Shown piece by piece: positions 23,501 through 60,847 of a stretch of DNA of 64,000 nt. Position 1 is the first letter of the stretch, and each line of letters begins with the position of its first letter. Source of the DNA: Calothrix sp. PCC 7103 (GTDB lineage Bacteria; Cyanobacteriota; Cyanobacteriia; Cyanobacteriales; Nostocaceae); the NCBI RefSeq assembly GCF_000331305.1, contig NZ_KB217481.1:156765-220764 (forward strand), written 5' to 3'. Under the pieces are notes generated by a model. It ran no database searches and had not been told where the DNA came from. It worked only from the letters and a program-made list of their open reading frames with translations. The position numbers and the translations under genes are program-made.

Positions 23501-23700
23501 AACGCGCGACACCAATTCAAGTCTTGCGGCAGATTATCGGCAAGCTCGGATTCAAACTCAAGCTTGGTGGACGCGATGGTTCCGGTACTCGACAACGCTA
23601 CTACTACATCAAATCAATTTACAACGGCGCCAAAATTCTAGCTAATTGGTTGGAAAAGGATTCGTCTCAATCTGGCTATACGTCCACTGAATCTGTATAA
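20599..23700 (+). CDS. Plasmid replication protein, CyRepA1 family (first copy)
   Basis: 1033 residues. After an N-terminal DNA-binding-like region (1-100), a DUF3854/Toprim-like domain follows with VTIVEGAKKA (222-231), ICFDYET (282-288) and KGVDDF (324-329). A helicase domain comes next with Walker A KSPKGTGKT (385-393), a DECE-type Walker B (IIVDECEQVFW, about 475-485) and SLETGVSID. This is the layout of cyanobacterial plasmid replicases, which likely act as primase-helicase initiators. A 1025-residue paralogue with the same motifs lies at 51073. The stop codon falls inside a stem-loop (23681-23725). ATG start; the frame from about 23626 on is partly duplicated downstream. Confidence 0.85.
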   Translation: MNYNSVLSSSAAISEKTFASLSEGALTIDYLVEQLHLERAHVEEWLESSVDLGIVALNVKSLSGDGAYEYLIPDPRAATKKVHPDAQWKALRNRYGTWENGGWWVNGIDPLEGYSPMGWGSFKPKIPRLKTSASGFGAVAKVKLKPIKYEHAVGEKTRAIFLEVPLYIWKKIADKYNVPLPNFVEAPDTSSYSDIYIYTNLVDGRIPEISFWQWVHENNLPVTIVEGAKKAGALLTAGFIAIAIPGIFSGYRSVKDASDKVIDRFIIPDLKHFSTPGREFNICFDYETRPVQLRDLKTAITNFGFLLVQEQCVVRVTDLPGKEKGVDDFIAMRGAWAYKIIHAKLSFDQWRCLEFAKLTAVSVTINQRYLGEMKLPAGAKLVGIKSPKGTGKTEWLIKIVAERMAQGLPTILLTHRVQLGEAICNRLGLTYVARLKDDDSETYNGYGFGFGLCVDSLHPNSQARFNAESWKDALIIVDECEQVFWHTLTASTEVKKHRPEVISQMSKLFSQALVHENGGIILLDADLSDLSFEFVKGLAGASDIEPWIVENTWKPEVGRTVINYTNRYQLLAALEKEIEAGNNVMIVTQSQKRQSKFSTINLETRLRKKFGDGKSILRCDSETIADPSHPAFGCIGSLNEILTKYNIVICSPSLETGVSIDIEGHFSSVWAFMAGVSSVNSACQSVIRLRELVPLHMFAAKRGLNFSGNRSINNRALVMGQNKTYRANLSLIDSTDGEEFKLNQTAIDVWGKMAARVNAGMQNYRDSILLALQNEGHTITEPEAEFEESVVKEIEKELNEIKKGNYTKYCEAICEKDISTLSSTEFEKLQSKKSKTEDERNLEKKYELHQLYSVDVTPELVAADDDGLYPALRLQYYLTIGRPYLKERDKKVVEGLVKNGNGKIFTPDLNKSVYIASVSALEILGVAPLLNQTERAFRGLDSDLQTLCEKAIQFSNEIKDLLNITISKRATPIQVLRQIIGKLGFKLKLGGRDGSGTRQRYYYIKSIYNGAKILANWLEKDSSQSGYTSTESV

Positions 23701-23725
23701 ATACAAAAACCATTATTAGTGGACG
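23681..23725. repeat. Rep-linked stem-loop, copy 1
   Basis: CGTCCACT (23681-23688) and AGTGGACG (23718-23725) flank a 29-base loop containing TATAAATACAAAAACC. The stop codon of the first CyRepA1 gene (23698-23700) lies in the loop. Confidence 0.8.
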
Positions 23726-23791
23726 GACTGTATATCCACCACTTCCAAATAACGATGGACACGCTCATCACCTTTTAGATGGGCATGAACG

Positions 23792-23810
23792 AAGCCGCCT
23801 CGGCTTTATT
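23792..23810 (+). terminator. Possible terminator after the first replication gene
   Basis: AAGCCG (23792-23797) and CGGCTT (23801-23806) pair around three bases and are followed by TATT. Short T-tract, so strength is doubtful. Confidence 0.4.
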
Positions 23811-23896
23811 CGAGGTCAACTTTATCGTGCGATAAAAACAAGGCGCCCAAATTCTAGCGAATTGGTTGGAAAAGGATTCGTCTCAATCTGGTTATA

Positions 23897-23952
23897 CGTC
23901 CACTGATTTCGTATAAATACAAAAACCATTATTAGAAAGGTTGCACTGGACG
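23897..23952. repeat. Rep-linked stem-loop, copy 2
   Basis: CGTCCACT (23897-23904) with TGGACG (23947-23952) and an inner TTTC/GAAA pair; the loop again holds TATAAATACAAAAACC. It lies inside the duplicated segment. Confidence 0.7.
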
Positions 23953-24080
23953 GACTATATATTCAGCACTTCCAAATAACAATGGACACGCTCATCACCT
24001 AAAAGGTGGGCATGAAGGAAGGCGCCGCGAGTTCCAGCCAAATAGTTAGGGCATGGTGTGAACCAATATGGACGTCCACC

Positions 24081-24131
24081 GCAGGCTTTCTGATTCTATA
24101 TAAATATAAAAAACAATCTTAGAAAGCCTGC
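24081..24131. repeat. Rep-linked stem-loop, copy 3 (different arms)
   Basis: Perfect 11-bp arms GCAGGCTTTCT (24081-24091) and AGAAAGCCTGC (24121-24131), unlike those of copies 1 and 2, but the loop still holds TATATAAATATAAAAAAC. Both arms changed together, which preserves pairing. Confidence 0.75.
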
Positions 24132-24265
24132 ACTCTCTCGCGCCAATCGATCAATACCAAATAATGTAACCACGCACCTTACCAAGGCAAACTTCTATTT
24201 AAGTTTTAGGCTAAAACTCGCAGCAAAACCCAACATGCTTTGGGCGCCCATTAACTATCACGTCA

Positions 24266-24323
24266 CGTCCATCCCCCAACTTTCGTTCATAAGTATATTT
24301 ACAAAAACCATCCTTACTGGACG
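24266..24323. repeat. Rep-linked stem-loop, copy 4
   Basis: CGTCCA (24266-24271) and TGGACG (24318-24323) flank a loop with GTATATTTACAAAAACC. The region 24020-24430 between and after these elements holds no gene I would defend. Confidence 0.6.
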
Positions 24324-25238
24324 GATTACTAACATTCAAATCCTGCTCCAGCAACGAATGCCAACACAGGTCTTAAATCAAAAGCATCGGCGTCTACCTC
24401 GAATGACGTCGATCTCGGCGCCTCATTACGATGCACTTAATTATTTCTGTACACATCGTATCATTAACATTCTTGTTTAAATTTACAATTGAAAATTACG
24501 ATACACACAGTATTGCTACTAAAATAATTATGATACGCTATGTATCAATAAACTTTCATGAAGTGATACGTCTTGTTTCGATAAAAAAATCAAATTAAGC
24601 ATTTATGCTTAAAAGCCTAAGTTAGACTAATTTAGCCTAATGCAGACTACATTAGTCTACATTAGGCTAATTTTGGATTTCTTCATAAAAGTAGGAACTA
24701 GAAGCAATATTGTACGGTAAACCGAACAATCGGAGTTTATTTGTTAATATTTAAAACTAACAAATTTTAATGATTAGATTGGTTTGAATGTCAAGTCTGT
24801 ACAGCAGATACTTGACAAGTTAATGTTAAATAGAATAATTCAAGCTGCGGTGTAGGCACCTTGAAGTAACAGGGAGCATCTAGTTTTGGCGAATCGAGTT
24901 TTTTAATGGATGCTTCCATTCCTTGAATGCTTCCAAGTCACACGGCACTATTAGAAAACTTATCTAAAAGTGATATTTATGGTTGATGGAATTATTCATT
25001 TACAAGCTATGGCGTAGCAGCCTTCCTAATATAGATAAATGGCTTTTGGAGGTAACGCCCTTGAATAAAGTGTGTTTGGAAACTGTGCATCGTGTTATGC
25101 AATGTTTATAAAAGGCTCATAGAGACATGAGTATTTATAGATACGCTTCTATTTTAGTCAGGAAGCATTTTATGATTTATCCTATAAGCCTTTGATTAAG
25201 ATTAAACATAAACTTGGCGCCTTCTTCAAGCCTAAAAA

Positions 25239-25575
25239 GCGCACATAAAAAAGCGCACATCTACTTGTCAAACGTGCCTAAAAGGGGGTGCGCTTTTTGA
25301 GCGCACATGAAAAGCGCACCTGGATGTGCGCCTACCTAAAATTAGGCGCACCCTTGCTGTATAAGGAAGCGCAGCCTCTTCCACAAAAAGCGCACCCCTA
25401 AGCGCAGCGCTTTTTAAAAAAGCGCACATTTCAAGGTGCGCCCTAGGTGCGCTTTCTAAAAAGCGCACTTTTATATAAAATTAGGCGCACCCTTGACAAA
25501 GCTCGCTGGGGAAGCTTCCCCCAGCAGACTTTGGTGCTGTATAAGGAAGCGCAGCCCTTTCCATCAAAAGCGCAC
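25239..25575. repeat. Cluster of AAAGCGCAC-type repeats, both orientations
   Basis: I count 14 GCGCAC/GTGCGC hexamers in 337 bases (10 in one direction, 4 in the other), most preceded by an A-run. A longer unit, TAAAATTAGGCGCACCCTTG plus CTGTATAAGGAAGCGCAGCC, occurs twice (25337-25376 and 25476-25556), the second copy split by a 41-base insert. Confidence 0.85.
25496..25536. mobile_element. 41-bp palindromic insertion
   Basis: The second copy of the longer repeat unit differs from the first by a 41-base insert. It has outer CAAAG/CTTTG arms (25497-25501, 25529-25533) and an inner near-perfect palindrome around GAAGCTTC (25505-25525). This looks like a very small mobile palindrome rather than a deletion in the other copy. 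Confidence 0.5.
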
Positions 25576-26320
25576 TTTCAATCGCGGTGCTTTTTGTATT
25601 ATTAAGCAATTAAACACGCTTTAATAAAATCGTGCGTATCTCGAATATTGCGTATCTCGAATATAAAGTACCTATATTTAAAATAGTTGGTTTTGTATGC
25701 ATAGTTTCCAGTAAACAAGCTCACCGATGCACAACAGGCGCCTTTACCAAAGCTTGAATCTTAATCAATGTATTGCACTATTCTTTCTATAATTAAGTAA
25801 TGCACAAACAATAATCAACATTACCTATAGTTTCTGATAAACTCTAGCAATTAGGCTAAATCTATAAAAAATTATTTAGACAATCTAGAAGTATTTATTT
25901 AATGCAATTTAATCTTTTATTAGGTTCGGTTATTACTACAGTATTTCTAACACACCCATTCTGGCGCTCAAATTATCTAATTCCAAGTTAGCCTAAATTA
26001 GCCCAACTTAGGCTACATTAGCCCAACTTAGACTAATTTAGGCTTTTAAGCATTAATACTCAATTCGATTTTAATATCGACACTAAACGTATCATTTATT
26101 GCGATATATAACGGAACTTCTTGTATCGAATTAAAATATTAACGATACTAAGTGTTTCTCAATTAGAATAGTATTGATACGGTAAGTAGCATTATATATA
26201 GAATAACAATATGGTATGTACTCAAATGTTGAATTTGAAATGCGTAAAGCAGGCGCCAAACGAGTAAAACATTACGCACGCTTAGTATTAAGAAGAAGGA
26301 AGGAGAGTTCAAGATTCTCC

Positions 26321-26428
26321 GTTTCAGATATTTGTTTGTGCGTAGTTGGGTGATTCTGATTTAGGCGCCTCTAGGTTTCAGACATTTGTTTGTGCGTAGT
26401 TGGATGATTCTGATTTAGGCGCCTCCAG
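26321..26428. repeat. 54-bp tandem duplication
   Basis: 26321-26374 and 26375-26428 are nearly identical (GTTTCAGA(T/C)ATTTG...GGCGCCTC). The second copy contains the last codons and the stop of the minus-strand gene at 26378; the first lies just past the stop. A mutation of the stop would add 18 in-frame residues repeating the C-terminus. Confidence 0.85.
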
Positions 26429-26779
26429 ATTAATTCCCAGAGTTTTGGCTGCGGTTCGGATTTTATCTAATTGCTTTTCAACTTTGGCGATGGTTCGCTC
26501 TAGTCTTTTGAGTTCTTTACCGCGTGTGATTGCTTTGGAGTAGTAGTCTAGTTTGTTGGCAGGAATGTAAAAAGTCTTTTTGTTGTTGATGCTCAGGGTG
26601 GTGTTAGCTGTACTACGCAGTCTGTAATAATCGCCTTCTTTTTTGGCTTTCTTCGACGCGGTTCCACCAGGTAAACACTTTTCCAAGTAAGCATCTTGGA
26701 TTGCAAGACCTTCCTCTAAAAGTTCTCGGCGCCGTGAACGTAAAAATTCGAGCGAACTTGAAAATTCTAAGTAGTTCAT
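26378..26779 (-). CDS. Basic coiled-coil hypothetical protein
   Basis: 133 residues. A helical start (LEFLRSRRRELLEEG), a basic central part with GDYYRLRSTANTTLSINNKK and a YIPANKL segment, and a C-terminal coiled coil (KELKRLERTIAKVEKQLDKI, about 90-110). It resembles small plasmid-borne DNA-associated proteins of unknown function. It is the only minus-strand gene in this module and starts 30 bases from an isolated TTTATTCGGTGTAA-type inverted repeat (26809-26857), which may control it. ATG start. Confidence 0.6.
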   Translation of the reverse strand: MNYLEFSSSLEFLRSRRRELLEEGLAIQDAYLEKCLPGGTASKKAKKEGDYYRLRSTANTTLSINNKKTFYIPANKLDYYSKAITRGKELKRLERTIAKVEKQLDKIRTAAKTLGINLEAPKSESSNYAQTNV

Positions 26780-26808
26780 ATCCCAACCCTAGAAGCAATT
26801 AATTTTTC

Positions 26809-26875
26809 ATTCGGTGTAAAAATTGCATAGAAAAATGAAAAACTTACACCGAATAAACGTAAAATTCTTACACCG
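26809..26875. repeat. Inverted repeat ATTCGGTGTAA, copy 5, with extra half-site
   Basis: ATTCGGTGTAA (26809-26819) and TTACACCGAATAAA (26844-26857), followed by a further TTACACCG half-site (26868-26875). It lies between the coiled-coil gene and the small DNA-binding gene at 27108, upstream of both. Confidence 0.85.
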
Positions 26876-27107
26876 TAAAGCTTTGAATCATCCAACACCC
26901 CTTCAAATACAAGTTATTTGAAATTGCGTTATACCAACTGTACCATGATTAGGTATTTAAATAGCACCAGTTAAACCACTTATGCCAAAATAACCAAAAT
27001 AACCAGTACAACCGGGGGACGTAGGTACTAGTCAGGGGTGCCTACCGTATATTAAGATGTAGAGTATATATATAGTGTTGCTAAAATAAGGGGTTAAAAG
27101 AATTTGT

Positions 27108-27308
27108 ATGGGACGAAACGTAGATAACCCGGTGTTTGTAAGAGCGCGGATTGACGAAGAGACGCGCGATAAATTTAAAATAGCGTGCATGTTCCACAAA
27201 AGTAGCATGGATGCCGTGCTTACAGAGTTGATAGAAGAGTGGGTAGCTAAGAAATATCCTTTTGTAAAACCTTCACCTAGTGTAGAGGAAGCGGTTTGTG
27301 AAAACTAA
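27108..27308 (+). CDS. Small ribbon-helix-helix-like DNA-binding protein
   Basis: 66 residues. NPVFVRARIDEETRDKFKIA gives the strand and first helix, and SSMDAVLTELIEEWVAKKY the second helix of a CopG/Arc/ParG-like fold. No toxin gene is adjacent, so a stand-alone repressor or copy-control protein is more likely than an antitoxin. Upstream lies an inverted repeat GTAGGTAC/GTGCCTAC (27021-27045), a possible operator, and a TATATATAG run. AAGGGG precedes the ATG by about 14 bases. Confidence 0.6.
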   Translation: MGRNVDNPVFVRARIDEETRDKFKIACMFHKSSMDAVLTELIEEWVAKKYPFVKPSPSVEEAVCEN

Positions 27309-27313
27309 TAGAG

Positions 27314-27401
27314 CCGCAGCCTGAGTGCGTGACAACCGTTGGTTGCCTACAACGTGTCTACAAAGTGTCTACGTAATTATCTATTAAATGGCTGCGGTTT
27401 T
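27314..27401 (+). terminator. Long-range stem with nested hairpin after the small DNA-binding gene
   Basis: CCGCAGCC (27314-27321) pairs with GGCTGCGG (27390-27397), followed by TTTTAAC. Inside are a CAACC/GGTTG hairpin (27333-27345) and a direct repeat GTGTCTAC (two copies about 27353-27373). It may be a terminator with a structured insert or a small RNA. Confidence 0.4.
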
Positions 27402-27431
27402 AACTATATATATAGTGAGAATAGCTGTTTT

Positions 27432-28517
27432 CTATAAAAAATGTTCTGATAAGTATGATTCTCTGTAGCCTTGTTCCTGTAATAAGCTGAAGTCGCCAGG
27501 GTTCCAACCATTAATTTTTTGTATATTATCGGTGGGTTTAACAGTGCATTTTAGTAGAGTTTCTGAGTTTCCGGTAATGCGCGCAATAAGTTGAGTGATA
27601 TATTTACAGCAGGCGCCGGGTTGAGAGGCGATTTGTTCTTCGCAGAAAATGAGGGCGATAAATTCGTAGCCGATAATCAAGGATTCAAAAAAATCGTTTT
27701 TGAGTTGGTTGTCGTTTTCTGGTTCGAGGTTTTCTATTTGAAATTTTAGATTTTCTGCATACTCTTGCCTGTCTCTGAAGAAATTGTCGTCATGCCCGTC
27801 AATCGTATAGGGGATATCGATAATAATGGCGATGTTTAAATAAGTATAAATATTTACATGTATAAAGCTTGTAGATTCAATAATGCGTAAATTTTCTGGT
27901 AGGTAGTCTTTGATGGCTTGAAAATTTGCAGGCGCCAAAGCAAGGGTAGGTGTTTCCAAGCATTCTTCTAGACTTGAGATAAATTTGCGGATATGTGGAT
28001 TTTGGTCTAAAAAAGTTAGATACTGCCGTTGAGTTTCGGGTTGTTCGGCATATTTTTGAAAGATGGCGCCTAAAAAATCGGCTTTGGGAAGTTCAACTAG
28101 ACGCTGTTTTTTAAGAGCGCGTGCTATTTTTTGAGATGAATTAGTGCGATGCTGGCTCTTGTTAATATTTGGTATATGGGCAGCAAGTGTTGCAATACCC
28201 TTTCCTTGTAGAATTATTATAATTCCAAGACAGATAAGTAGCGCGATTATTATATTGCCATAATATAAAGCTACAAAGACAATAAGTTCTAGTATTATGA
28301 AAATAGTAATCTGATATTTTTCCTTAAATTGTCTTAATTTTTTTGCAGTGTCTAGATGCAAAGAATAAGAGGAAGCATGTGATGCTTTGAGTTTTTTTGA
28401 GTTTTTGGGTAGCCCAGGCATTGTAATATGACGGGACTGTAATTCTACCGATTCGAGTAAGGCTTCGATTTTTTGGGGCAGGCAAAAATAAGGATAAACC
28501 TTTGGATTCGGCGCCAT
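27432..28517 (-). CDS. Membrane protein of unknown function
   Basis: 361 residues from the ATG at 28517. A TTG at 28580 would add 21 residues and overlap the LuxR-type gene. Two adjacent hydrophobic spans at about residues 69-105 (ITIFIILELIVFVALYYGNI and IIALLICLGIIIILQGKG) form a hairpin in the membrane, leaving a cytosolic N-terminus and a C-terminal domain of about 250 residues with EFLGAIFQKYAEQPE-like helices, a YLNIAIIIDIPYTIDG strand pair and a Cys-containing helical part. No catalytic motif found. Transcribed with, and just downstream of, the LuxR-type regulator, so it may be a sensor or a target of it. Confidence 0.6.
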   Translation of the reverse strand: MAPNPKVYPYFCLPQKIEALLESVELQSRHITMPGLPKNSKKLKASHASSYSLHLDTAKKLRQFKEKYQITIFIILELIVFVALYYGNIIIALLICLGIIIILQGKGIATLAAHIPNINKSQHRTNSSQKIARALKKQRLVELPKADFLGAIFQKYAEQPETQRQYLTFLDQNPHIRKFISSLEECLETPTLALAPANFQAIKDYLPENLRIIESTSFIHVNIYTYLNIAIIIDIPYTIDGHDDNFFRDRQEYAENLKFQIENLEPENDNQLKNDFFESLIIGYEFIALIFCEEQIASQPGACCKYITQLIARITGNSETLLKCTVKPTDNIQKINGWNPGDFSLLQEQGYRESYLSEHFL

Positions 28518-28546
28518 AAAATTAACCACTACATCATATTTGAGTC

Positions 28547-29407
28547 TCAAATTTGAACTAAGTTTTTTTTGATAGCCCAAACGGCAAGCGATGTACGGTT
28601 AGGTAAGCGGGTCTTATTCAATAATCTGACTAAATGCGTTTTTACAGTACTTGTACTCAAGTTAAGTTTTTTTGCGATTTGGTCATTTTCAAAACCGCTA
28701 GCAATAAGCTGAATTATAGTCTTCTCGCGCTCAGTGATCTTATTATCTAAGGCAGCTATATCAATACAATTAATAGTTTGGGTATAAGTTTGCATTTGAG
28801 TGATTAATTTATCCGAAAATATCGGGTCAATCCAGGCGCCATGATTATAAATAGTACGTAGTGCTTCGACAAGAGTTTTAAAATTAAAGTTTTCCGTTGC
28901 ATAGAAAGAGTGTATTTGTTTTTCGGTTATTAAGTTTGAAAGCTTTACTTTATCTATATTTAATGATGTTAATAAAAACAATTTAGCTGTGCTTAATATA
29001 TTAGAGCTTTTAATATATTGTGTAATGTTATCTATATTGTTTTTAGTCTTTTCCAAATTTTCTTCGTAAATCAGAAGAATATCTACACTTTGATATGGGT
29101 TTCCATCACGTCCTACAACGGAATGAGTGACTGAGTTAGCTTCTATTTGGTGCGTGCATTGAAGCAGCTTATTATCATCTTTTTTAATTTTGGTATCTAA
29201 TAAATCATTCTTTGAATTGCAGTGTAAAAATGAGTTAGATGTTTCCACTCGGCATAAAAAATTCTCAAATCCTTCACAGTATGTGGATTCAAAACTAACC
29301 TCAAAATAATATTTTGATTGCTTATTGTACTCTTTAATACCATTTTTCATTGTATTCAACAGAAGGTTTGAAGATACAATTAAACCTAAATTTATGATAA
29401 TGCTCAT
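28547..29407 (-). CDS. LuxR/NarL-type transcriptional regulator
   Basis: 286 residues. The C-terminal 65 residues are a clear LuxR helix-turn-helix: TEREKTIIQLIASGFENDQI, AKKLNLSTSTVKTHL and RLLNKTRLPNRTSLAVWA. The first 210 residues form an alpha/beta domain with SVDILLIYEEN at about the place where a response-regulator Asp would be, but the usual Asp-Asp...Lys pattern is not clear, so it is probably a pseudo-receiver not controlled by phosphorylation. It is divergent from the type IV secretion operon, 499 bases away, and is the best candidate for its regulator. ATG start. Confidence 0.8.
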   Translation of the reverse strand: MSIIINLGLIVSSNLLLNTMKNGIKEYNKQSKYYFEVSFESTYCEGFENFLCRVETSNSFLHCNSKNDLLDTKIKKDDNKLLQCTHQIEANSVTHSVVGRDGNPYQSVDILLIYEENLEKTKNNIDNITQYIKSSNILSTAKLFLLTSLNIDKVKLSNLITEKQIHSFYATENFNFKTLVEALRTIYNHGAWIDPIFSDKLITQMQTYTQTINCIDIAALDNKITEREKTIIQLIASGFENDQIAKKLNLSTSTVKTHLVRLLNKTRLPNRTSLAVWAIKKNLVQI

Positions 29408-29906
29408 AAAAGTAATAAAAGTGATAAAAGTATTGATTTTAGTTAGTGTGCTAAGTATAAATCTTTATCAGGCTTCGTCGCGGACTTAAGAGTTACACTA
29501 TTCCGCATATATTCATAAACTAATAGAATTATGTTAATAGCATGAATAAAATATAGCCATAGATATAAATACTATTTAATAAGTATTTTATTTTTTGTAT
29601 TTAATAATTAATATACTAATATGAATATAAAATGTAAAAAATAAAAAAAGTTATGGTGCTTTCTGATTTTGTATAGAGTACCTGATACAAATATTTATAA
29701 AAAGAAAGTAAATTTTATAAGCGTAAAGCAATGTAAATTAATTATAAAATTGTTTAACATAAATATTTTTGCTGAACAATCCAAGTTGCTGTAATAATAA
29801 TTACATAAATATAGAAAATAAGGTCTTACTATCTCTAGACCATTAGATGTAAAAAAAGAAGAATGTGTAAGACTTCTATTTTCTACAAGGGTCAAAGCTG
29901 ACTTTT
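29408..29906. promoter_or_regulatory. AT-rich divergent promoter region for regulator and transfer operon
   Basis: Very AT-rich (runs such as ATTTTTTGTATTTAATAATT), with no GGCGCC copy and no credible gene. It separates the LuxR-type gene from the first type IV secretion gene and must hold promoters in both directions. Such AT-rich transfer promoters are usual targets of nucleoid proteins. Confidence 0.5.
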
Positions 29907-30470: not shown

Positions 30471-30493
30471 GCAAGTTTAGTAACTATTACTTT

Positions 30494-30521
30494 CCACTCT
30501 TAAAAGTGACCTTAAGAGTGG
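30494..30521 (+). terminator. Intra-operon hairpin after the pilin gene
   Basis: CCACTCTTAA (30494-30503) and TTAAGAGTGG (30512-30521) pair perfectly around 8 bases and are followed by TTTATC. The T-tract is short, so some polymerases would read on. This is a plausible attenuator or mRNA-stabilising 3' end for the pilin message. Confidence 0.6.
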
Positions 30522-30568
30522 TTTATCAAACAAGAAATAGAATATTAATAAAAATATAGAGTAGCAAA

Positions 30569-51072: not shown

Positions 51073-54000
51073 ATGGAAAACGAAAAAATTGAAAACCCCC
51101 AGATAAGCGTTCAGGGGGTTGGCGCCGCAGGTGCCGCAGAAAGATTTAATTCACCTGCTATTGTAATACGTTTAGATTTAAAGAGCAATATTTATAAAGA
51201 AAAATGTTTGGACTTAAGTAAATTAGACCCAGATCATTTAGAAGAGTGGCGCCGTTCAGCTGTAGCAGATTCAATTATTGCTTTGAATGTTATTTCTGCA
51301 TGTGGAGTAGAAACTTATGAGTATTTATTTTATTCCCAATTAATAAATCGTAGAAATGATGGGCGCCTACGTGATGATAACTTAAAGAGATATCAACATA
51401 TAGAGAAGGGGGGTTGGTGGTGTAGTGGCATTGACCCGTTAGATGAATATAGCTTGATGATTTGGGGATGCTTTAAGCCGAATAAACCAAGACCTGATCC
51501 TAAAAAATTTTATAAGGTGATTAAATATGAGCATCCAGTACAAGAATCAACGCGCGCGTTCTTTCTAAAAGTGTCGGATGATATTTGGGAGAAAGTTGCA
51601 GCTAGATATGGCATTGCGGTAACAGAGGAAGACAAGCAGCATACAGGTGGATTTTGGCATTGGATTTATTTTAAAAGTGTGCCTGTCGTGATTGTAGAAG
51701 GCGCCAAAAAAGCAGCGTCCTTATTGAGTGCTGGGTATGCTGCTATTGGTATACCCGGTGTCAATAATGGGTATCGAACACCGAAGACTGAGAGTGGTGA
51801 ATCAGTTCCTTCATTACGACACTTAATACCAGACCTAGCATACTTTGCTACACCTGGACGAACAGCCTATATATGCTTCGATTACGAGACCAAGCCAGAA
51901 ACAGTAAAAAACGTTAGTGAGGCAATTAGAAAAACAGGCGCCTTACTAGGACGCGAAGGTTGCTTCCCTTATGTAGTTTCACTACCCGGTCCCGATAAAG
52001 GTATTGATGATTTTATTTATTCTTTAGGAGAAGGCGCCGTCGATTCATTATTTAAGCAAGCTCTTTCATTGGAAAAGTGGAAGTTGCAAGAATACGAAAA
52101 ACTATCGTATACACCTTCTATAACGATAAATCGATATAGAATTGGTGATTTAGTTTTTCCTGCAAGTGCAAAATTGATTGGCATCAAATCAGCCAAGGGA
52201 ACTGGAAAAACACAATCTTTCATAAAAGAGGTTGAGAGGGCACACGCCAATTGTCAAAGAGTTCTTATTATTACGCACCGGGTTCAACTTGGTGTTGCTT
52301 TGTGTAGGCGTTTAGGGGTGAATTATGTAACTGAAATTCGCACTGCTGATGACGGGCAAATGCTAGGGTATGGAGTGTGCATCGATTCTTTACGCGCAGA
52401 CAGCCAAGCAAGATTTAATCCCAATGATTGGAGTGGCGCCTTGGTAATCGTTGACGAAGCAGAGCAAGTATTTTGGCATTTACTACACGCTAAAACAGAG
52501 GTAGCAAAGCATCGCGTACAAATTCTCTGTAATATAAAAGCTTTATTCAAAGTTGTTTTAGCTTCCAAAGAAGGTAGAGTTATCCTTGCAGATGCAGACC
52601 TGAGCGATATTTCTATCGATTTAGTTCGGAACATGAGCGGACTTAACATTGAACCTTATATCGTATTAAATAATTATGTGCCAAATTCTGGAACAGCTTA
52701 TGTGTATGACGATAATGATCCAGATAATTTATTTGAAAATTTATGTCGTGCCATCAAAGCTGGTGAGCGTGTTTTAATTCACTGCACTGGTCAAAAAACC
52801 AAATCAAAGAGAGGCACTGTAGGATTAGAGAAATATTTGAAAAAGAAGTTTCCTGATAAAAAGATATTGCGGATAGACTCAAAAACTGTTGTTGATAACA
52901 CGGCGCCTGCTTATGGGTGTATCTCGAATTTAAATAAAATTCTCAAAGATTACGATATTGTAATCTCGTCTCCTAGCATAGAAACAGGCGTGAGTATTGA
53001 TATTGAGGGTCATTTTAATTCAGTTTGGGGTATTTTTGAAGCAATACTTTCTACTGATTCTGTTCGTCAAATGCTCGCACGGTTAAGAGAAACAGTGCCT
53101 CGCCATATCTGGATATCACCGAACATAATGAAAGGAAGTTTAATAGGAGGTGGCGCCACAAATATAAAGGAAATGTTGCACAATGTTAACACTACCTCAA
53201 AAGCTAATTTTAGATTATTACAAATGGCAGGTTTGGATGTTGATGAGATAGAAGAAAACACAAACAGGTTTCAAAATGAAAGCCTTGTAACATGGGCAAA
53301 GCGAGCTTGCATAATAAACACAGGATATTACAATTACCGAGAAACAATATGCGAAGGCTTAAAAAAAGATGGGTACATAGTAATGGAAGCGGAAGTTAAG
53401 CAAGATTCCGAAAAACTTTTTTCACCAGAGGAGTTAAAAGAAGTGAGAAACGAACTGTACGCTGAAGAATGCGCTAACATAGCTGCTCAAGAAATTCCTA
53501 GCTTAAAAGAACTAGAAGAGTTGCAGGCTAAACTATCAAAAACAGAAGAAGAATGGAATAAACAGTCTAAGGGTGAACTTCATTATAGATATGGTGTGCC
53601 GATTACACCTGACATCATAAAAAAAGATGATGATGGATGGTATTCCCAATTACGCCTCCACTATTACCTAACTGTTGGCGCCGAATTTGTATCTACAAGG
53701 GATAAAAAAATAGCAACTTCCAATGCAGAAGCTGGCAAGGGCACATTGTTTAAACCTGATTTTAATAAGTCACAACTATCTGCTGCTGTCAAATTATTAG
53801 AAGCTTTAGGGATTAAAGAACTAATTAATTCAGGCGCCACAACTTACACCAGGAGCAGTGAGAAAATGTTATCACTTGAACTTTTAGCAAAACAGCATAA
53901 ACAACTTATTAAAAATTACCTGGGGGTGACTATTAATCAAAAAGATACCCCAATCGCCATAGCCCAAGCCCTACTGGATAAACTAGGTATGAAGCTAACC

Positions 54001-54150
54001 TATGTCAGCAAAAAGGGGGGCAGAGGTAAACAACAAAGAGTTTACGCTTTTTTACCCTTACAAGACGGTAGAGAAGAAGTCTTTAACGTCTGGTTGTCGC
54101 GAGACTCAGAATCAAAACAGGAAGCAGAACCCAAAACGAAGAATACGTAG
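51073..54150 (+). CDS. Plasmid replication protein, CyRepA1 family (second copy)
   Basis: 1025 residues. It shares the layout of the protein at 20599: Toprim-like VIVEGAKKA (207-215), ICFDYET (267-273), KGIDDF (309-314), Walker A KSAKGTGKT (372-380) and a Walker B-type VIVDEAEQVFW. Many short blocks are identical, for example GGWW and HRVQLG, but the two are clearly divergent, so this is an old duplication or a merged second replicon. CAGGAAA precedes the ATG. The stop codon (54148-54150) falls in the arm of a stem-loop, as in the first copy. Confidence 0.85.
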   Translation: MENEKIENPQISVQGVGAAGAAERFNSPAIVIRLDLKSNIYKEKCLDLSKLDPDHLEEWRRSAVADSIIALNVISACGVETYEYLFYSQLINRRNDGRLRDDNLKRYQHIEKGGWWCSGIDPLDEYSLMIWGCFKPNKPRPDPKKFYKVIKYEHPVQESTRAFFLKVSDDIWEKVAARYGIAVTEEDKQHTGGFWHWIYFKSVPVVIVEGAKKAASLLSAGYAAIGIPGVNNGYRTPKTESGESVPSLRHLIPDLAYFATPGRTAYICFDYETKPETVKNVSEAIRKTGALLGREGCFPYVVSLPGPDKGIDDFIYSLGEGAVDSLFKQALSLEKWKLQEYEKLSYTPSITINRYRIGDLVFPASAKLIGIKSAKGTGKTQSFIKEVERAHANCQRVLIITHRVQLGVALCRRLGVNYVTEIRTADDGQMLGYGVCIDSLRADSQARFNPNDWSGALVIVDEAEQVFWHLLHAKTEVAKHRVQILCNIKALFKVVLASKEGRVILADADLSDISIDLVRNMSGLNIEPYIVLNNYVPNSGTAYVYDDNDPDNLFENLCRAIKAGERVLIHCTGQKTKSKRGTVGLEKYLKKKFPDKKILRIDSKTVVDNTAPAYGCISNLNKILKDYDIVISSPSIETGVSIDIEGHFNSVWGIFEAILSTDSVRQMLARLRETVPRHIWISPNIMKGSLIGGGATNIKEMLHNVNTTSKANFRLLQMAGLDVDEIEENTNRFQNESLVTWAKRACIINTGYYNYRETICEGLKKDGYIVMEAEVKQDSEKLFSPEELKEVRNELYAEECANIAAQEIPSLKELEELQAKLSKTEEEWNKQSKGELHYRYGVPITPDIIKKDDDGWYSQLRLHYYLTVGAEFVSTRDKKIATSNAEAGKGTLFKPDFNKSQLSAAVKLLEALGIKELINSGATTYTRSSEKMLSLELLAKQHKQLIKNYLGVTINQKDTPIAIAQALLDKLGMKLTYVSKKGGRGKQQRVYAFLPLQDGREEVFNVWLSRDSESKQEAEPKTKNT

Positions 54151-54204
54151 GCGCCCTCTGTAATATATATACAAATAATAAAACAACACATGCCTACGTC
54201 GTAT
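54145..54204. repeat. Rep-linked stem-loop, copy 5 (different arms)
   Basis: ACGTAGGC (54145-54152) and GCCTACGT (54192-54199), extended by AT/GTAT outside, flank a loop with TATATATACAAATAATA. The arms differ from those after the first replication gene, but position and loop type are the same. Confidence 0.7.
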
Positions 54205-54676
54205 AACATATTACCTGCCCAGTTTTAAGACTAGAGAAAGGCGGATTAATGGGTTAATGGTTAGTTCTATTAATCATATTCACAATTGAATACTAGCTTA
54301 TCGAGACCTTCTGCCGAAACTTTTACGATAGAGGTAGTATCTCAACTTGCAAAATCGTTAGTTTTTATACAAACTTTGAGCGACTTGAAAAACTGGTTCT
54401 CTTTTTATTTTCATTACTTGTAATTTATGAAAACTAATTCAAATTATTATCTTTACTTATTTTTTATAATAGTTAGTATTTTAAATTACTTAAACAATTA
54501 CCAATCTTCTGGTAAAGTATAATAAATATTTTTAATTTTAATTTTTTTTTTAATAATTGGTGGATAGCAAAAATCTGTATAAAATTTTTATATTTTTTTG
54601 GTGGCAAGCATATTATATTAGTAGTAGTAGTAGTTCATTATAAGTTGGAAAGTGAGATTGTATAAAAACTCTACTT
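54205..54676. other. AT-rich gap with a short microsatellite
   Basis: No gene or hairpin I would defend. It contains a TAGTAGTAGTAG stretch near 54621. A promoter for the gene at 54677 must lie here. Confidence 0.4.
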
Positions 54677-55399
54677 ATGAAGATAATTAGCGGCAGTATA
54701 TTAAAAATAGACGAAGTGCGTCACACACGCAGTGTTGACAATTTTAAAATAAATATTTACTCCGTGGATGGTGAATTGGTAATTCCCTTGCATGTAGCCT
54801 TTTTGAGAAATAAACAGGTAGAAAAGAATATATTTAAAGAATTTATCAAAGATAACGGGATACCGATAAAAATTGTTAGAGCTAGATTTAGGCAAAACAC
54901 CTCTGTTATCTCAGCACAGTCTTGCATTGATTTCTGGCGCCAGAATAGAGCGATATTAAACGAGTTAGTAAAGCTGGAAGTTAATGATTTAATAAATGAA
55001 GTTGAATCTGTGATAAGCTCATGTGGAGTTTATATTCAGCCAGCTATAGGCTTTACAATTGATTCGGGGATTAAGCTAGAACTTTTTTACATTGCGAAAT
55101 TAGGGGAATACAGAGTCAGTGATAAGTCTACTCAAAAGCTACTAGGATGCTGTTTTCAAGAATTTAATGGTAAATATGAAGATTCAAAAAAAGCTTGTGT
55201 AGCGACTAAAACTATTTATGGACGCTCGTTGACAGAGGCTACTCAGACCTTTCCGTTAAATACTGTCTTAGATTATTTGGAGTCTTCCTGCTCGCAGTCG
55301 GATAAAGAAAAGCCGTTTATTAGTATATTTGTTAAATACGGCATAACAAGTTTTAACGAGTACTTGGACAGCATAATTTTATCATTTCCTTGGTTGTAA
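54677..55399 (+). CDS. Hypothetical protein, probable distant paralogue of the one at 49730
   Basis: 240 residues, ATG start. The middle KDNGIPIKIVRARF and IDFWRQ segments and a later LDYLESSC helix parallel those of the 49730-50536 protein. No recognised domain, and no signal peptide. It ends one base before the converging relaxase gene (stops at 55399 and 55400), so the two transcripts meet tail to tail with no visible terminator between them. Confidence 0.5.
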   Translation: MKIISGSILKIDEVRHTRSVDNFKINIYSVDGELVIPLHVAFLRNKQVEKNIFKEFIKDNGIPIKIVRARFRQNTSVISAQSCIDFWRQNRAILNELVKLEVNDLINEVESVISSCGVYIQPAIGFTIDSGIKLELFYIAKLGEYRVSDKSTQKLLGCCFQEFNGKYEDSKKACVATKTIYGRSLTEATQTFPLNTVLDYLESSCSQSDKEKPFISIFVKYGITSFNEYLDSIILSFPWL

Positions 55400-57214
55400 T
55401 TACCTTTGTTGATTTTTACTTTTCTTTTTGCTATTTGTATTTTTGATTTCGTCTGCTTGAGCGTACAATTGCTGCAAGTCATCATTCCAATCATTATTTG
55501 AAGGAGTTAATCTAATTATATTAGGTATAACTTTTTTCAAATCTTTGTACAACCTGTCTCCAGATGAAGAATGCTCAAAAGCGCAAACAACGTTGTCGAA
55601 TCTATCCAGATATTTAAACGGCGCCGACCGAAGGCTATCGACAGCTATATACATAGTGTTTTCGGTAACTGGTTGTTGTTGAACTGCAAGTGAGATAGCG
55701 TCGATAGGAGATTTGCAAAGTACAGCTTTTGTCGGTTCTGTTTCAGTATCACCTTGTCGAAAATAAAAGTAGCTTTTATTACGTGCGCTATTTTTGGCAT
55801 AACCTTTAAAGCCATTTTGCTGACCTCGCGTTCCTCTAAGGTAGGCGCCACTAATTTCTTCAGGGTTTTCGAGAGAGCGCATTATAAAAACTGCATTATG
55901 CTTAGAATCGCTATATAGTAATCCCGCTTGGTGCATACCTTCTACCCAGTTTTTAGGGAGATGTCGGGATTCAATAAGATATTTTTTAACTTCTCCCCAA
56001 TTACTTTCTTGTGGGAAGGGTGGAGAGAAAGGTTCCGGTTTGGATTCGTTTCCAGCAGCGACAAATTCCAGAGCATTGTTTCTAGCTTGTGCCGATACTG
56101 CACGAATCACACCTTGCTCACCAAAATTATCATGTAACCAAGCAACTGCTTGCCTAAAATTACATTGCTCTACGTGCATAACAAAATCTATGGCGCCGTA
56201 TCCTCCCCGATCAAATTCTGGAGCAAAGTCAAAAAATTTATTATCTCGTATTTGAATAATATGACCGTAACCTTTCCACCTATTTTTACCGTAATAATCT
56301 TCCATTAACCCTAGATGCCAAGCAATTTCTTCAAGTGCAATGTCGCGCAATAACTCAGCTTCTTGCCTAAACTTAAAGTTTTCTTCTTCTAAAGCATGTA
56401 CCCTTTCGTCTAACTGGCGCCTGATCCGCTCATGATTTAATAATGTTAGATTAAGAGTTTCGTTCTGATTTTTTATTGTATCTTTCTCTCGCTGCTGGGC
56501 ATTTACAATATCTACTTCAGGAGTCAAGTATCTGTGTACTCTTTCTCGGTATTCGGCGCCTGACTCCCCTTCAACAGCATGTGGTAAGCTATCTAAATCA
56601 ATATATTTTGTTTGCGAATTTACTCGTTCATAGTATGTTTGCACATTGACATATTCTGCAACACTTCCTTTTATACCTCGCTCAATTCCAAGGTGGGCTA
56701 GTGATGCTGCAAAGTCATCTTGTAGCCGGGATAATTTCTGGGCGCCTCCGAAAAATGAACGACAGTTTAGTTTGTTTCTATCATCGATAGGTATAAAGTA
56801 AGCGTGTATATGAGGAGTTTGTTCGTCTAGGTGTAATTCGGCACGTACTAAATTATTGCCATACTTTTCTTTTAGCCAATATTGGCAGGCATTAGCAAAT
56901 TCATTTACTCTGTCTGGTTCGTAATATCCTCCATTCGCAGGGTTGGTCGGGCGAAAATACTGGGGGCTTGCTGATAGTAAAATTTCAACCAGTAGTACAG
57001 CATTTTTACGGACTGTTGCAAGTCTAATTTTATTTTCAAATATATCCTGTAATGATCTTTGCTCGTATCCTAGAGTATCTATAATTCTGATATTTTCAAC
57101 AGCAGAATTAGCATTTAGGGTCGTGCGTGTGCGCGCTGTGTGAGCTTGCGACGACCCAACCTCACCCCAGGACTTCAGCTTTTGAATTCTACAGATAGCC
57201 TTTGGTTTTTCCAT
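55400..57214 (-). CDS. MobV-type relaxase fused to a primase-like region
   Basis: 604 residues. The N-terminus carries relaxase motifs: an AHTARTR segment (24-30) and the metal-binding HLDEQTPHIH (128-137), which mark MobV/Pre-type relaxases that nick oriT and pilot the strand. The catalytic residue of this family is not certain. A coiled region (about 235-290) leads to a DnaG-zinc-domain-like segment (GAIDFVMHVEQCNFRQAVAW, about 340-360) without the zinc Cys cluster, and then a DUF3991/Toprim_2-like domain (410-590, ISGAYLRGT, YIAVDSL). Such fusions can prime the entering strand. ATG start; oriT probably lies just upstream. Confidence 0.8.
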   Translation of the reverse strand: MEKPKAICRIQKLKSWGEVGSSQAHTARTRTTLNANSAVENIRIIDTLGYEQRSLQDIFENKIRLATVRKNAVLLVEILLSASPQYFRPTNPANGGYYEPDRVNEFANACQYWLKEKYGNNLVRAELHLDEQTPHIHAYFIPIDDRNKLNCRSFFGGAQKLSRLQDDFAASLAHLGIERGIKGSVAEYVNVQTYYERVNSQTKYIDLDSLPHAVEGESGAEYRERVHRYLTPEVDIVNAQQREKDTIKNQNETLNLTLLNHERIRRQLDERVHALEEENFKFRQEAELLRDIALEEIAWHLGLMEDYYGKNRWKGYGHIIQIRDNKFFDFAPEFDRGGYGAIDFVMHVEQCNFRQAVAWLHDNFGEQGVIRAVSAQARNNALEFVAAGNESKPEPFSPPFPQESNWGEVKKYLIESRHLPKNWVEGMHQAGLLYSDSKHNAVFIMRSLENPEEISGAYLRGTRGQQNGFKGYAKNSARNKSYFYFRQGDTETEPTKAVLCKSPIDAISLAVQQQPVTENTMYIAVDSLRSAPFKYLDRFDNVVCAFEHSSSGDRLYKDLKKVIPNIIRLTPSNNDWNDDLQQLYAQADEIKNTNSKKKSKNQQR

Positions 57215-57322
57215 ATTTCAACGCTATCATTTTCACTTAACCCATATCTTATGCGCTTATTATTTTTGAATATTTCTAAACAAAACGTTAATTAATTGTT
57301 GATTTATTTTACGCTCATAGCA

Positions 57323-57367
57323 TATTCGGTGTAAAATTTAGAAATTACACTAGTTTTACACCAAATA
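57323..57367. repeat. Inverted repeat TATTCGGTGTAA, copy 6
   Basis: TATTCGGTGTAA (57323-57334) and TTACACCAAATA (57356-57367), one mismatch, 21-base spacer. It lies between topA and the relaxase, upstream of the relaxase start, where an oriT could sit. The stretch 57215-57322 before it is otherwise plain. Confidence 0.75.
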
Positions 57368-57379
57368 GTTTAGGCGCCT

Positions 57380-59425
57380 CTACACTTTGAATTCCCCAAA
57401 CTTGGGACTCCACCAACCGTTTTGGGTTTTGAAGTAAACAGCCTCTTTATGGTCTGGATTCCTACGCGCCTCTGCATCCGAGCAACGAAGCATAGTTTTT
57501 TCTTGCCCATCTTTAATATATGTATAGGTTTCAAGTGGGGTTTTACAGACAGGGCATGGAAACTTTGTTACTTTGTTTTCAGCTTTCTTGGCGCCTCCTT
57601 TCTGAGAGGTTTTTGTTTTACTAGAAGATTTTGTAGATGGCTTGGAACTAGTTATCGAGGAATCAGTTTTATAAGTAGTAACTGGTCTAGCTCCTACGAT
57701 ATCTCTTGCTTGAGCAAGTGCTGGCGCAAAATATATGCTGTTCCATCTAGTAATAAATTCTTGCCAATCTTCGGCGCCTGATGCAATTTTATCTAAGCTT
57801 GATTCCATGTTGGCAGTAAAGTCAGATTTAATCATGTCTGGTAAGGCTTTCATTAAAAAGTCATCGACATCAAGCCCCATGCTTGTTGGTTGCAAAGTAT
57901 CCTTTGTGAGTTGAACATAACCACGCGCTTTAATAGTCGCAATTGTTGGTGAATAAGTACTAGGGCGCCCAATGCCTTTACGTTCCATCTGCTGCACAAG
58001 CTTGGCTTCGCTAAATCTAGCTTGCGGCTGAGTTTGTTTTTTCTCGTGGTTAGCACTTTGTAAAGTTAGACTTTGATCTTCTTTAAGAGCCGGAAGAGTA
58101 CTATCTTTCCCCAAGTTATCCCAGTATTTTGCATATCCTGCAAATTCAAAAACTTGTCCGCGCGCTTGCCAGGTAATATTTCTTGAAACAGTTGTGATAA
58201 TAGTTTTTTGAATAACTGCGCTCTGGCATTGAGAGGCAACTGCTCTCTGCCAAATTATTTCGTAAATACGCGCTTGATTACTATCAACTTCTGCTGCTAC
58301 GTTAGAGGGTGTTTTTGTAACATCTGTTGGTCGAATAGCTTCATGTGCTTCTTGGGCTTTAGGTGAATTCTTATGTTTAGCAGTATTTTCAGGTACGTTT
58401 TCGGGGTCATTCTCTTGTAACCATGAACGGGCAGCGTCACAAAAATCGGCACTCAAAGTCACAGAGTCAGTTCGCATGTAAGTAATTAAGCCAGCTTCGT
58501 ATAATTTTTGGGCTAGCTGCATTGTGGTATCAGGAGATATTTTGTACTTGGCGCCTGCAACCTGTTGAAGACTAGACGTTGATAATGCTGGTGGTGGTTG
58601 CTTTTTAGTACTTCTACCAACGATGGATAGTACTTTATGGGGTGAAGTTGATGCAATACTTACTAATCTTTCAGCGTCTTCTTGTGATAAAACTCGACTC
58701 GATTCTTTACTATTTTCCTTGGAGTTTTCTGAGTCATCAGCTGCCTCGTCTTCTACTGCTACTTCTTCTGCCTCTTTTTCAGCTAACCCTCCTTTATAAA
58801 AAGCTTGGAAATTCTCAGCATACTTTACAAATACACTCCAGTAGTTAGTCGGTTTGAAGTTTATGATTTCTCGTTCACGCTCACACACAAGATGCAGTGC
58901 AGCACTTTGTACTCGTCCCATACTCTTGGCGCCGTTGTTCAATGTCCAAATTAGCGGACTTCCTTTATATCCAACTAGCTTGTCAAGACAATCTCTACAC
59001 AATCCAGCATTTACAAGATTAACGTCTAAAGTCCGTGGTTTGGCTATTGCTGCTTTGATTGCTGCTTCTGTAATCTCTGAATAAACTACTCTCTGGGGGT
59101 TCTTTAAGTTGAGTACTTCTTTAAGGTGCCAAGCTATAGTTTCTCCCTCTCTATCAGGGTCAGTGGCCAGGTAAACTTCTGAAGCACTTTTTGCTGCTGT
59201 CTTCAATTGTTCTATAGTATCTTTGGCACGCGAGTCTTTTGGTTGGTAGGAACAATTTACTTTATTCCCTTCAAAACTAAATCCTAACGAATCTTCTCCC
59301 TGGTTAGATAGTTCTCTAATATGCCCGCAGCTTGCTTTTACTATCCATCCGGCGCCTAAAATCTTAGATATCTTTTTTATCTTTCCTGGTGACTCTACTA
59401 TTAACAATTTCTTAGATTTATCCAT
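57380..59425 (-). CDS. topA: DNA topoisomerase I (type IA), plasmid copy
   Basis: 681 residues. N-terminal Toprim KKLLIVESPGKIKKI (5-19) and TDPDREGE (88-95), the catalytic Tyr in ITYMRTDS (Tyr 316), and a C-terminal zinc-finger-like part with CPVC and a later Cys (about 620-655). An acidic insert (EKEAEEVAVEDEAADDSE, about 217-234) is unusual. Type IA enzymes relax negative supercoils and some plasmid versions (TraE/TopB-like) aid transfer or decatenation. Shorter than a typical cyanobacterial chromosomal TopA, which fits a plasmid-specific form. ATG start. Confidence 0.9.
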   Translation of the reverse strand: MDKSKKLLIVESPGKIKKISKILGAGWIVKASCGHIRELSNQGEDSLGFSFEGNKVNCSYQPKDSRAKDTIEQLKTAAKSASEVYLATDPDREGETIAWHLKEVLNLKNPQRVVYSEITEAAIKAAIAKPRTLDVNLVNAGLCRDCLDKLVGYKGSPLIWTLNNGAKSMGRVQSAALHLVCEREREIINFKPTNYWSVFVKYAENFQAFYKGGLAEKEAEEVAVEDEAADDSENSKENSKESSRVLSQEDAERLVSIASTSPHKVLSIVGRSTKKQPPPALSTSSLQQVAGAKYKISPDTTMQLAQKLYEAGLITYMRTDSVTLSADFCDAARSWLQENDPENVPENTAKHKNSPKAQEAHEAIRPTDVTKTPSNVAAEVDSNQARIYEIIWQRAVASQCQSAVIQKTIITTVSRNITWQARGQVFEFAGYAKYWDNLGKDSTLPALKEDQSLTLQSANHEKKQTQPQARFSEAKLVQQMERKGIGRPSTYSPTIATIKARGYVQLTKDTLQPTSMGLDVDDFLMKALPDMIKSDFTANMESSLDKIASGAEDWQEFITRWNSIYFAPALAQARDIVGARPVTTYKTDSSITSSKPSTKSSSKTKTSQKGGAKKAENKVTKFPCPVCKTPLETYTYIKDGQEKTMLRCSDAEARRNPDHKEAVYFKTQNGWWSPKFGEFKV

Positions 59426-59550
59426 AGGAATTTAAGGAATATATTGTATCTACATACTCATATTTATGACATTTTTTAGGCTCTAAACTAGTCAGAGTCT
59501 ATACAACACTAAAATGTCTAGCCTTTATATTTAGTAGCAAATACTTGGAA

Positions 59551-59585
59551 ATCAAAAATACCCCTTTGTTCCAGCGGACGGGGTA
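59551..59585 (-). terminator. Terminator after the gene at 59668
   Basis: On the minus strand TACCCC (59585-59580) pairs with GGGGTA (59564-59559) around 15 bases and is followed by TTTTTGATTT. It lies 83 bases downstream of the stop of the 59668 gene and upstream of topA, so the two genes probably have separate messages. Confidence 0.6.
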
Positions 59586-59667
59586 GTTTAGAAGGCATTT
59601 ACTTTATGTTGAAAAAAAACATATCAAACACTGACGGAAGCAATGCCCATTTCATTTTTAAAGTTAA

Positions 59668-60534
59668 TTATGTGGCTTTTAATTTAAGCTCCTTTTTAGG
59701 CGCCGATGCTGCAATTTTTCCAGTTTTATTTTTATTTGACGCTAGTGCTTCGGCTTTCATTTGCTTACCAGCTTTTAAAAATTTAGGCATCTCTTCTGAT
59801 GGCATCTGACACAACGACACAAAGCCAAACGCATTTTTCTGAGGAAGGAACCTTGCTACGATTGAAACGAAGTATGGGCGCCTCTGCTGTTCTTTTGGTA
59901 ATTTTGGGTTGAATCTAAACGGCGGTACAGGTGAATCTTTCCAAAATAATGGGATGTGACTTGCTTTCATGTACTTTACTTTTTTAGTCGCATCGATTTT
60001 TTTGATGAACTTTACTCTTTCTTCAGTAAAATTTTTAAAGACGGAAATGCAAGGAACCTGACATACTGGTATAAACTGCCATATACCACTCAACCTAAAT
60101 TCAAAATCTTTCATGCTAAAGGCGCCGTCGTTCTTGCCAGAATCAAAGGCTACAAGCTGAAACGCGATTTGATGTTGCTTTTCGCGTTCAGGAAAATGAA
60201 TAGCTTTTGGATAAACTAATATCCGCTGCTGTTCGCCAGTTGCCTTTACATGGTCTTGAAAAAATGAGAAAGCTTTGAATCCTTTACGGCTAGGTATATA
60301 AAATAATGGATACTTGTTTCCACTAATCGTTATAAAAGCAGTTTTATCTTCTATAAATTCCACTTTTCCTGTCACCACTCCTACAGCCTGAAACAGCAAC
60401 TCGCTTTTTGTACTTGAATTTTCTGAAGCTTTTTCTTGTTCTTTGTTTTCCGTATTTGGAGAAACGGTTACGTCCCGTCGTGGTTTTAAAATTTTAGCGA
60501 TATTACTGGGCAGTTCCTGATTCTTAGACAACAT
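59668..60534 (-). CDS. Hypothetical protein, beta-rich
   Basis: 288 residues from the ATG at 60534 (MLSKNQELPSNI); a GTG at 60627 would give 319. A disordered first part is followed by a beta-rich domain (about 55-200; VVTGKVEFIEDKTAFITISG and YPLFYIPSR), and the end is basic (KQMKAEALASNKNKTGKIAA), probably nucleic-acid binding. I do not recognise the family. It may be OB-like. It is in front of topA on the same strand. Confidence 0.5.
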   Translation of the reverse strand: MLSKNQELPSNIAKILKPRRDVTVSPNTENKEQEKASENSSTKSELLFQAVGVVTGKVEFIEDKTAFITISGNKYPLFYIPSRKGFKAFSFFQDHVKATGEQQRILVYPKAIHFPEREKQHQIAFQLVAFDSGKNDGAFSMKDFEFRLSGIWQFIPVCQVPCISVFKNFTEERVKFIKKIDATKKVKYMKASHIPLFWKDSPVPPFRFNPKLPKEQQRRPYFVSIVARFLPQKNAFGFVSLCQMPSEEMPKFLKAGKQMKAEALASNKNKTGKIAASAPKKELKLKAT

Positions 60535-60627
60535 AAGGTTTTTCTTTATTGTAGCTTTATCTCTAACAAGATTACTTTGTGCGTATTTGTGACTGCCGTA
60601 AGGTAAAGTAGTGGCGCATGTAGACAC

Positions 60628-60847
60628 ATGGCACCTTCAGCTTCGCGCACTCATTATCTAATATTATCAAAACTCAAAGCATAAGGCGCCTTCAAAAACG
60701 AACAATATTTTCACCCTACGGGTTCAACAGTTTGCCGATCTGTTTCCGTCCCCACAACTGTTTCACGGGCTAATATGGCAAGATGCCACGTCCACTAATT
60801 TTGTATATATACGAATACCACACGCAGTGGACGGTAAGAACGTGGTC
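60628..60847. other. Gap holding a Rep-type stem-loop
   Basis: No gene evident. The only clear structure is the stem-loop at 60789-60833. The short reading frame at 60783-60965 crosses it and the insertion-sequence end, so it is not accepted as a gene. Confidence 0.4.
60789..60833. repeat. Rep-linked stem-loop, copy 6, next to the intron end
   Basis: CGTCCACT (60789-60796) and AGTGGACG (60826-60833), with loop TTTTGTATATATACGAATACC. The arms are identical to those of copy 1 at 23681, 37 kb away. On the minus strand it directly follows the end of the group II intron. Confidence 0.75.

Follow-up and report, generated by a model that had tools for sequence, protein, structure and literature searches.

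The 3' ends of two plasmid replication genes in Calothrix sp. PCC 7103 raise the question of what an inverted repeat that overlaps both stop codons is for, and whether it acts as a folded structure or as a sequence recognized in double-stranded DNA. The window that we analysed, 64,000 nucleotides in length, corresponds to bases 156765-220764 of contig C10, a plasmid of 321,658 bp (~322 kb) in a genome of 11.58 Mb and 12 contigs, the others including C7 (8.79 Mb), C12 (1.56 Mb) and C9 (392 kb). It encodes two CyRepA1-family replication proteins on the plus strand: copy 1 (positions 20599-23700, 1033 aa) matches NCBIfam NF042913 with 448 bits and PF12965 (DUF3854), and copy 2 (51073-54150, 1025 aa) matches NF042913 with 453 bits. 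A rolling-circle double-strand origin is defined by the nick site that an HUH-type Rep cuts; DUF3854 and CyRepA1 are the only models matched by the replication genes of the window. The nearest rep relative in the plasmid collection is encoded by plasmid2 of Calothrix sp. NIES-4105 (AP018292), with 58.9% identity. The original prediction saw here a stem-loop family with changing arms and a constant loop at replication gene ends, and read compensatory change in the arms as pointing to selection for structure.

Both CyRepA1 stop codons indeed lie inside inverted repeats. The element at the copy 1 stop (23681-23725, plus strand) is a 45-nt pair, CGTCCACT-N29-AGTGGACG, which we call family A, and it shares identical arms, as had been stated, with the 45-nt pair CGTCCACT..AGTGGACG at 60789-60833 (plus strand). 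The latter has a minus-strand ORF on one side and a DDE transposase ORF on the other, in front of a segment (60904-63810) in which the transposase ORF lies beside a group II intron RNA (62201-62284, minus strand) with a reverse transcriptase ORF. The copy 2 stop is covered by an inverted repeat with other arms, ACGTAGGC..GCCTACGT, of 55 nt (54145-54199, plus strand). Downstream of copy 1, a tandem duplication (23626-24029, plus strand) consists of two units of ~180 nt (seen as repeat families D1, 94%, and D2, 87%), each with the rep 3' end, a family A element and a downstream stretch; the elements at 23681 and 23897 are thus tandem duplicates (94 nt at 94%), and duplication accounts for part of the local copies. 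The second of them (23897-23952, plus strand) combines a short left with a long right arm, and is followed by a long-arm form, GCAGGCTTTCT..AGAAAGCCTGC, at 24081-24131 and a degenerate copy at 24266-24323 (both plus strand). When folded with DNA parameters and compared to shuffles, the repeats at 23681 (z -3.21), 24081 (z -5.02), 54145 (z -3.03) and 60789 (z -2.36) stand out, whereas those at 23897 (z -1.66) and 24266 (z -0.51), whose outer arms span 6 bp, are weak and fold barely better than the shuffles, so the list of repeats originally drawn up holds for four of its six members. Further downstream of this array, at 25234-25495, there is a cluster of AAAAAGCGCAC repeats in both orientations.

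The original prediction overlooked a further family A pair within the CyRepA1 reading frame itself (21164-21208, plus strand), as well as two other dispersed inverted-repeat families on the plasmid. The in-frame copy falls in a stretch of ~20 aa that is partly common to four same-genus homologues and absent in the other 28 aligned. AP018292 holds a degenerate DNA counterpart in which the middle and the right arm are kept, which indicates that the in-gene copy is old. Another inverted repeat in the helicase motif (22026-22074) was dropped because it was read as coded by conserved residues.

Over the plasmid, family A takes the form CGTCCACT, an AT-rich middle, often TATATATA, and AGTGGACG, mostly within 45-47 nt. 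The pattern CGTCCACT-N10..40-AGTGGACG occurs exactly at six places in the 11.58-Mb genome, all on C10, and the reversed control pattern at none. With up to three arm mismatches, 12 places on C10 pass an AT/TATA filter, compared to 0, 0, 0, 0 and 1 in five dinucleotide shuffles; four extra copies with slightly less AT-rich middles (24266, 60789, C10:239146 and C10:249160) were accepted, giving ~16 in total, a count that excludes three similar rows (C10:282520, 299171 and 299772) and seven rows without TATA. An alignment of 14 copies revealed constant arms and a variable middle, the reverse of the pattern originally described. Mixed short- and long-arm forms are seen at 23897 and, by eye, at C10:298914, and two degenerate relatives reside on C12. 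Nearly all family A copies are intergenic and away from rep gene ends, the exception within a gene being the one inside CyRepA1.

Family A is not the only repeat of this build. Inverted repeats of 8 bp with a span of 36-70 number 142 on C10, against 24-52 in ten shuffles. Family B comprises 22 exact copies, all on C10; in the window, four of its inverted repeats, TTATTCGGTGTAA..TTACACCGAATAA, lie 0.4-0.9 kb upstream of CyRepA1 (19715-20146), another at 26809-26854 and a degenerate one at 57325-57365. At C10:298.9-300.2 kb (L024/L025), units of ~320 bp bear alternating family A and B inverted repeats, four times over. Family C has 11 copies, nine of them on C10, which form part of a longer stretch that is conserved; at C10 282.4, 304.7 and 305.0 kb, C5:2430 and C12:1528757 the conserved sequence behind the repeat includes a promoter-like TATAAT and GCGGACGGGTACAGTCA. 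Of the A, B and C sites combined, 44/48 are outside ORFs of at least 100 aa. Two family B copies are found in the Calothrix PCC 7716 plasmid Cal7716_p1, one of them at the matching place. By the patterns tried, AP018292 is without families A, B and C; it has a family of its own, 16 inverted repeats GTTAGGGTGCG..CGCACCCTAAC (including those at 154.7, 217.7-218.3 and 262.1-262.5 kb), many in arrays with a step of ~115-120 bp. A whole-plasmid blastn search with the repeat region gave no match in the plasmid collection. As to other words, GGCGCC is 26-61x over-represented in C10, AP018292, Cal7716_p1 and parts of C7 and C12, and HIP1 (GCGATCGC) is rare on the same replicons and parts.

Cumulative GC skew along C10 reaches its minimum in the bin whose end is at 176 kb, a short way upstream of CyRepA1 (177,363), and the four clustered family B repeats sit at this minimum. 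For this reason we do not call the family A pair the origin of this plasmid, and an origin of replication at the 3' gene end, one of the functions originally proposed, is not favoured here.

The occurrence of the pair at other rep gene ends was surveyed in 70 CyRepA-family genes. A first set of 33 loci comprised the best 30 CyRepA1 loci from 208 genomes of the same family, two paralogues of the PCC 7103 genome itself and the second window gene; later loci were 20 more, partly chosen for likeness to positives, eight named plasmid reps, pCC5.2 and eight further plasmid reps. A strict pair, defined as TCCA-N-TGGA with complementary outer bases at the stop and an allowed spacing of 29-38, is present at the stop codon of 13/70 genes, compared to 43/6984 control positions, and the observed spacing is 32-35. 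A looser rule (any arm of at least 7, span 40-56 containing the stop) yielded 15/70 versus 275/6847 controls. In the 33 loci taken before any pattern-led choice, YGTCCA..TGGACR occurs in five (L099, L103, L123, L127 and L130; control 41/6347), and the strict rule finds 4/33. Three distant homologues (L123, L127 and L130) carry GTGTCCA-N34/35-TGGACAC starting at -14. Ten of the 13 strict positives form one related group, six members of which are on contigs larger than 6 Mb, and the remaining three belong to the window gene, L139 and Synechocystis pCC5.2; the 13 pairs therefore represent approximately four independent lineages.

The strict pair is absent from 57/70 genes, including the four nearest homologues (57.9-59.5% identity), which have no inverted repeat with arms of at least 7 near the stop, the CyRepA1 gene of pSYSA, and L138, a locus chosen for its likeness to positives. 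Microcystis p1 and pAQ1 possess the left word and are missing the right one. As neither pSYSA nor the nearest homologues carry it, the pair is not a universal origin. The broader rule of an inverted repeat after every CyRepA1 gene was dropped: any arm of at least 7 within -60..+90 of the stop was found in 8/33 loci and 190/1220 control windows, which is not clearly enriched. The predicted location at rep gene ends thus stands insofar as other CyRepA stops also bear a YGTCCA..TGGACR pair with comparable spacing, but not for nearly all copies on the plasmid itself, and absence after other CyRepA1 genes, named beforehand as the observation that would speak against the proposal, applies to most of the genes surveyed but not to the 13 with the pair.

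A search for GTGTCCA-N28..38-TGGACAC retrieved 54 places in 36/208 same-family genomes, a raw number that carries no meaning, as it is not above that of the reversed control (~67, hand count). Among the 33/54 places that were read, a CyRepA1 3' end is located within 300 bp in 18/24 with AT-rich middles, compared to 1/9 with less AT-rich ones. Of the six AT-rich places without a nearby rep gene, one (L170) is in an unrelated ORF and three are a single orthologous place. In 127 genomes outside the family the pattern has two places only, both with GC-rich middles. The genome of PCC 7103 itself has four such places, the rep ends at C7:46144, C7:8782374 and C12:202070, plus C12:201168, 902 bp further. 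Elsewhere, at L021:6793-7033, we noted a HEARO RNA (125 bits).

How are the arms constrained? In the ten grouped loci, a group that was defined post hoc, 0/14 arm columns are variable, versus 25/31 in the left flank, 23/35 in the middle and 51/67 in the right flank, and the two subgroups differ by 0.54, 0.54 and 0.49 in left flank, middle and right flank, respectively. The left arm in the window gene, L139, pCC5.2, Microcystis p1 and pAQ1 reads V/T-S-T/N in one frame and may be explainable by protein conservation. In the ten-locus group the arm words fall into a different frame than they do in the window gene, an argument against conservation of the protein as the sole cause. In 14 hand-picked rep-end sequences (pCC5.2 excluded), 83.3% of cells pair, a value reached by 1/500 shuffles, whereas changes on both sides are seen in two pairs, a number matched by 125/500 shuffles; a single exchange on both arms distinguishes pCC5.2 (GTATCCA/TGGATAC) from the GTGTCCA group (GTGTCCA/TGGACAC). 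We conclude that the pairing of the rep-end arms is real and that neither selection for structure as such nor the compensatory argument is supported. The constant words point instead to recognition of double-stranded DNA.

Among the closest known counterparts is pCC5.2 (CyRepA2), which has a Rep of the same family; its pair, GTATCCA-N33-TGGATAC, agrees in core and spacing and occupies positions -36..+11 relative to the rep stop. pCC5.2 is reported to replicate by the rolling-circle mode, and a replicon of 3,242 bp, composed of ORFb plus flanks of 257 bp (5') and 69 bp (3'), works in Synechocystis (PMC6066503). The pair falls within this replicon. The Rep of pSYSA from Synechocystis 6803 (CyRepA1) is also of this family, but the plasmid is without the pair, and its published control region is upstream of the rep gene (PMC9978351). 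In the available parts of these two replicon publications (PMC6066503, PMC9978351) the pair goes unmentioned. Nor did we recognize a description of it in the literature searched on CyRepA1, small dispersed repeats and iteron plasmid replication.

Iterons and initiator-titrating sites of theta plasmids are present in many copies of a short word per replicon, some beside rep; family A consists not of direct repeats but of inverted pairs at fixed spacing, mostly dispersed and many far from rep. Small dispersed cyanobacterial repeats (Elhai 2008) and Nezha MITEs resemble family A in being short and scattered. REP/REPIN sequences with GTAG or CGTC tags, a class associated with a RAYT transposase, are likewise short dispersed palindromes, and family A ends in CGTC. 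In the published CGTC families the tag stays unpaired beside an 8-9 bp stem that closes a loop of 4-5 nt (PMC3733652), whereas in family A the CGTC pairs within the arm and the middle measures ~29 nt.

We put the probability at roughly 40% that the pair is a DNA site with sequence specificity, possibly a binding site of CyRepA, that is tied to some rep genes and has been multiplied on this plasmid. A competing explanation, somewhat unlikely in our judgement, is a dispersed palindromic repeat (a miniature mobile element mobilized in trans) whose landing at and in the rep gene was due to chance. MITEs have terminal inverted repeats with a target-site duplication, and inverted arms are present in family A. 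The scatter of 12-16 mostly intergenic copies over the plasmid, the existence of families B and C, the extra codons that one copy forms in CyRepA1 and the isolated GTGTCCA copies that have no rep in their vicinity (L175, L179 and L184-L186) would all agree with mobility, but most of the AT-rich copies read in chromosomes attach to rep genes, the in-gene copy is old, and we identified no transposase with the arms on either side. One-ended transposition from truncated rep copies was dropped, as the best pair looks like gene conversion and a search by the 3' site biases what turns up. This best pair, in which one rep copy is full and the other truncated, with 56 kb separating them in one genome (G169:C3:355914 and 411850; L190 and L127), has 591/593 bases in common through the site and resembles a recent gene conversion. 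The same pair of copies, together with compensatory counts no higher than in shuffles, would also be expected if the site were merely inherited without function along with the rep 3' end, its quasipalindrome perfected by template switching that yields matched arm changes; L139 and L149, which have the same left side and different paired words (GTGTCCA/TGGACAC versus ACACCCCCAA/TTGGGGGTGT), fit such switching. The invariance of both arms in ten loci whose surroundings diverge by half, and the tight spacing of 32-35 across lineages, make this account improbable.

It appears still less probable that the pair is a site-specific recombination or attachment site that joins or exchanges replicon modules at the rep gene end. 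In favour of exchange are the two rep-end sites 902 bp apart on C12 (C12:201168-202117, L153) with a HAD-like ORF between them, a similar ORF beyond the site in another genome (G060, L172), and integrase genes annotated on the sibling plasmid AP018292 and on another plasmid. In a tyrosine recombinase core site, however, the two arms are 6-8 bp apart, far from the 32-35 bp seen here, and homology between copies stops at varied distances past the site rather than at it. The least probable alternative, which we regard as very unlikely, is an RNA element at the 3' end of the transcribed rep gene, such as a terminator, stability hairpin or processing site. While the position over the stop codon and the better-than-shuffled folding of several copies as single strands would suit an RNA, two copies fold no better than shuffles, many are away from gene ends, the T-run that comes after the stable GC-rich stem of an intrinsic terminator is missing behind the copies read in the window, and no Rfam match was obtained at the sites at gathering thresholds.

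As a sequence-specific site, the element would consist of two inverted half-sites with the core YGTCCA/TGGACR, 32-35 bp apart across AT-rich double-stranded DNA, joined to some CyRepA-family rep genes at their 3' end, with the stop codon usually inside. We infer that it could act in cis in replication by the CyRepA system, with CyRepA or a partner as the putative binding protein, and that on this plasmid, where it would have been multiplied to a dozen or more places, the extra copies might titrate or couple the initiator, by analogy with iterons elsewhere. More tentatively, and with some doubt, these sequence comparisons could mean that the genes of CyRepA-family primase-helicase initiators bring along, at their 3' end, the site that these initiators recognize, with two YGTCCA half-sites ~33 bp apart around the stop, from Synechocystis pCC5.2 to Nostocales plasmids and chromosomal reps, the outer bases perhaps being tuned per replicon so that several CyRepA replicons can share one cell. 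Because a short defined site lies inside a working minimal vector, that of pCC5.2, the question is directly testable in Synechocystis. CyRepA-family plasmids are among the commonest large plasmids of cyanobacteria, and the rep-end pair may be an undescribed replication control site, with the start and control of their replication and the coexistence of several of them per cell at stake.
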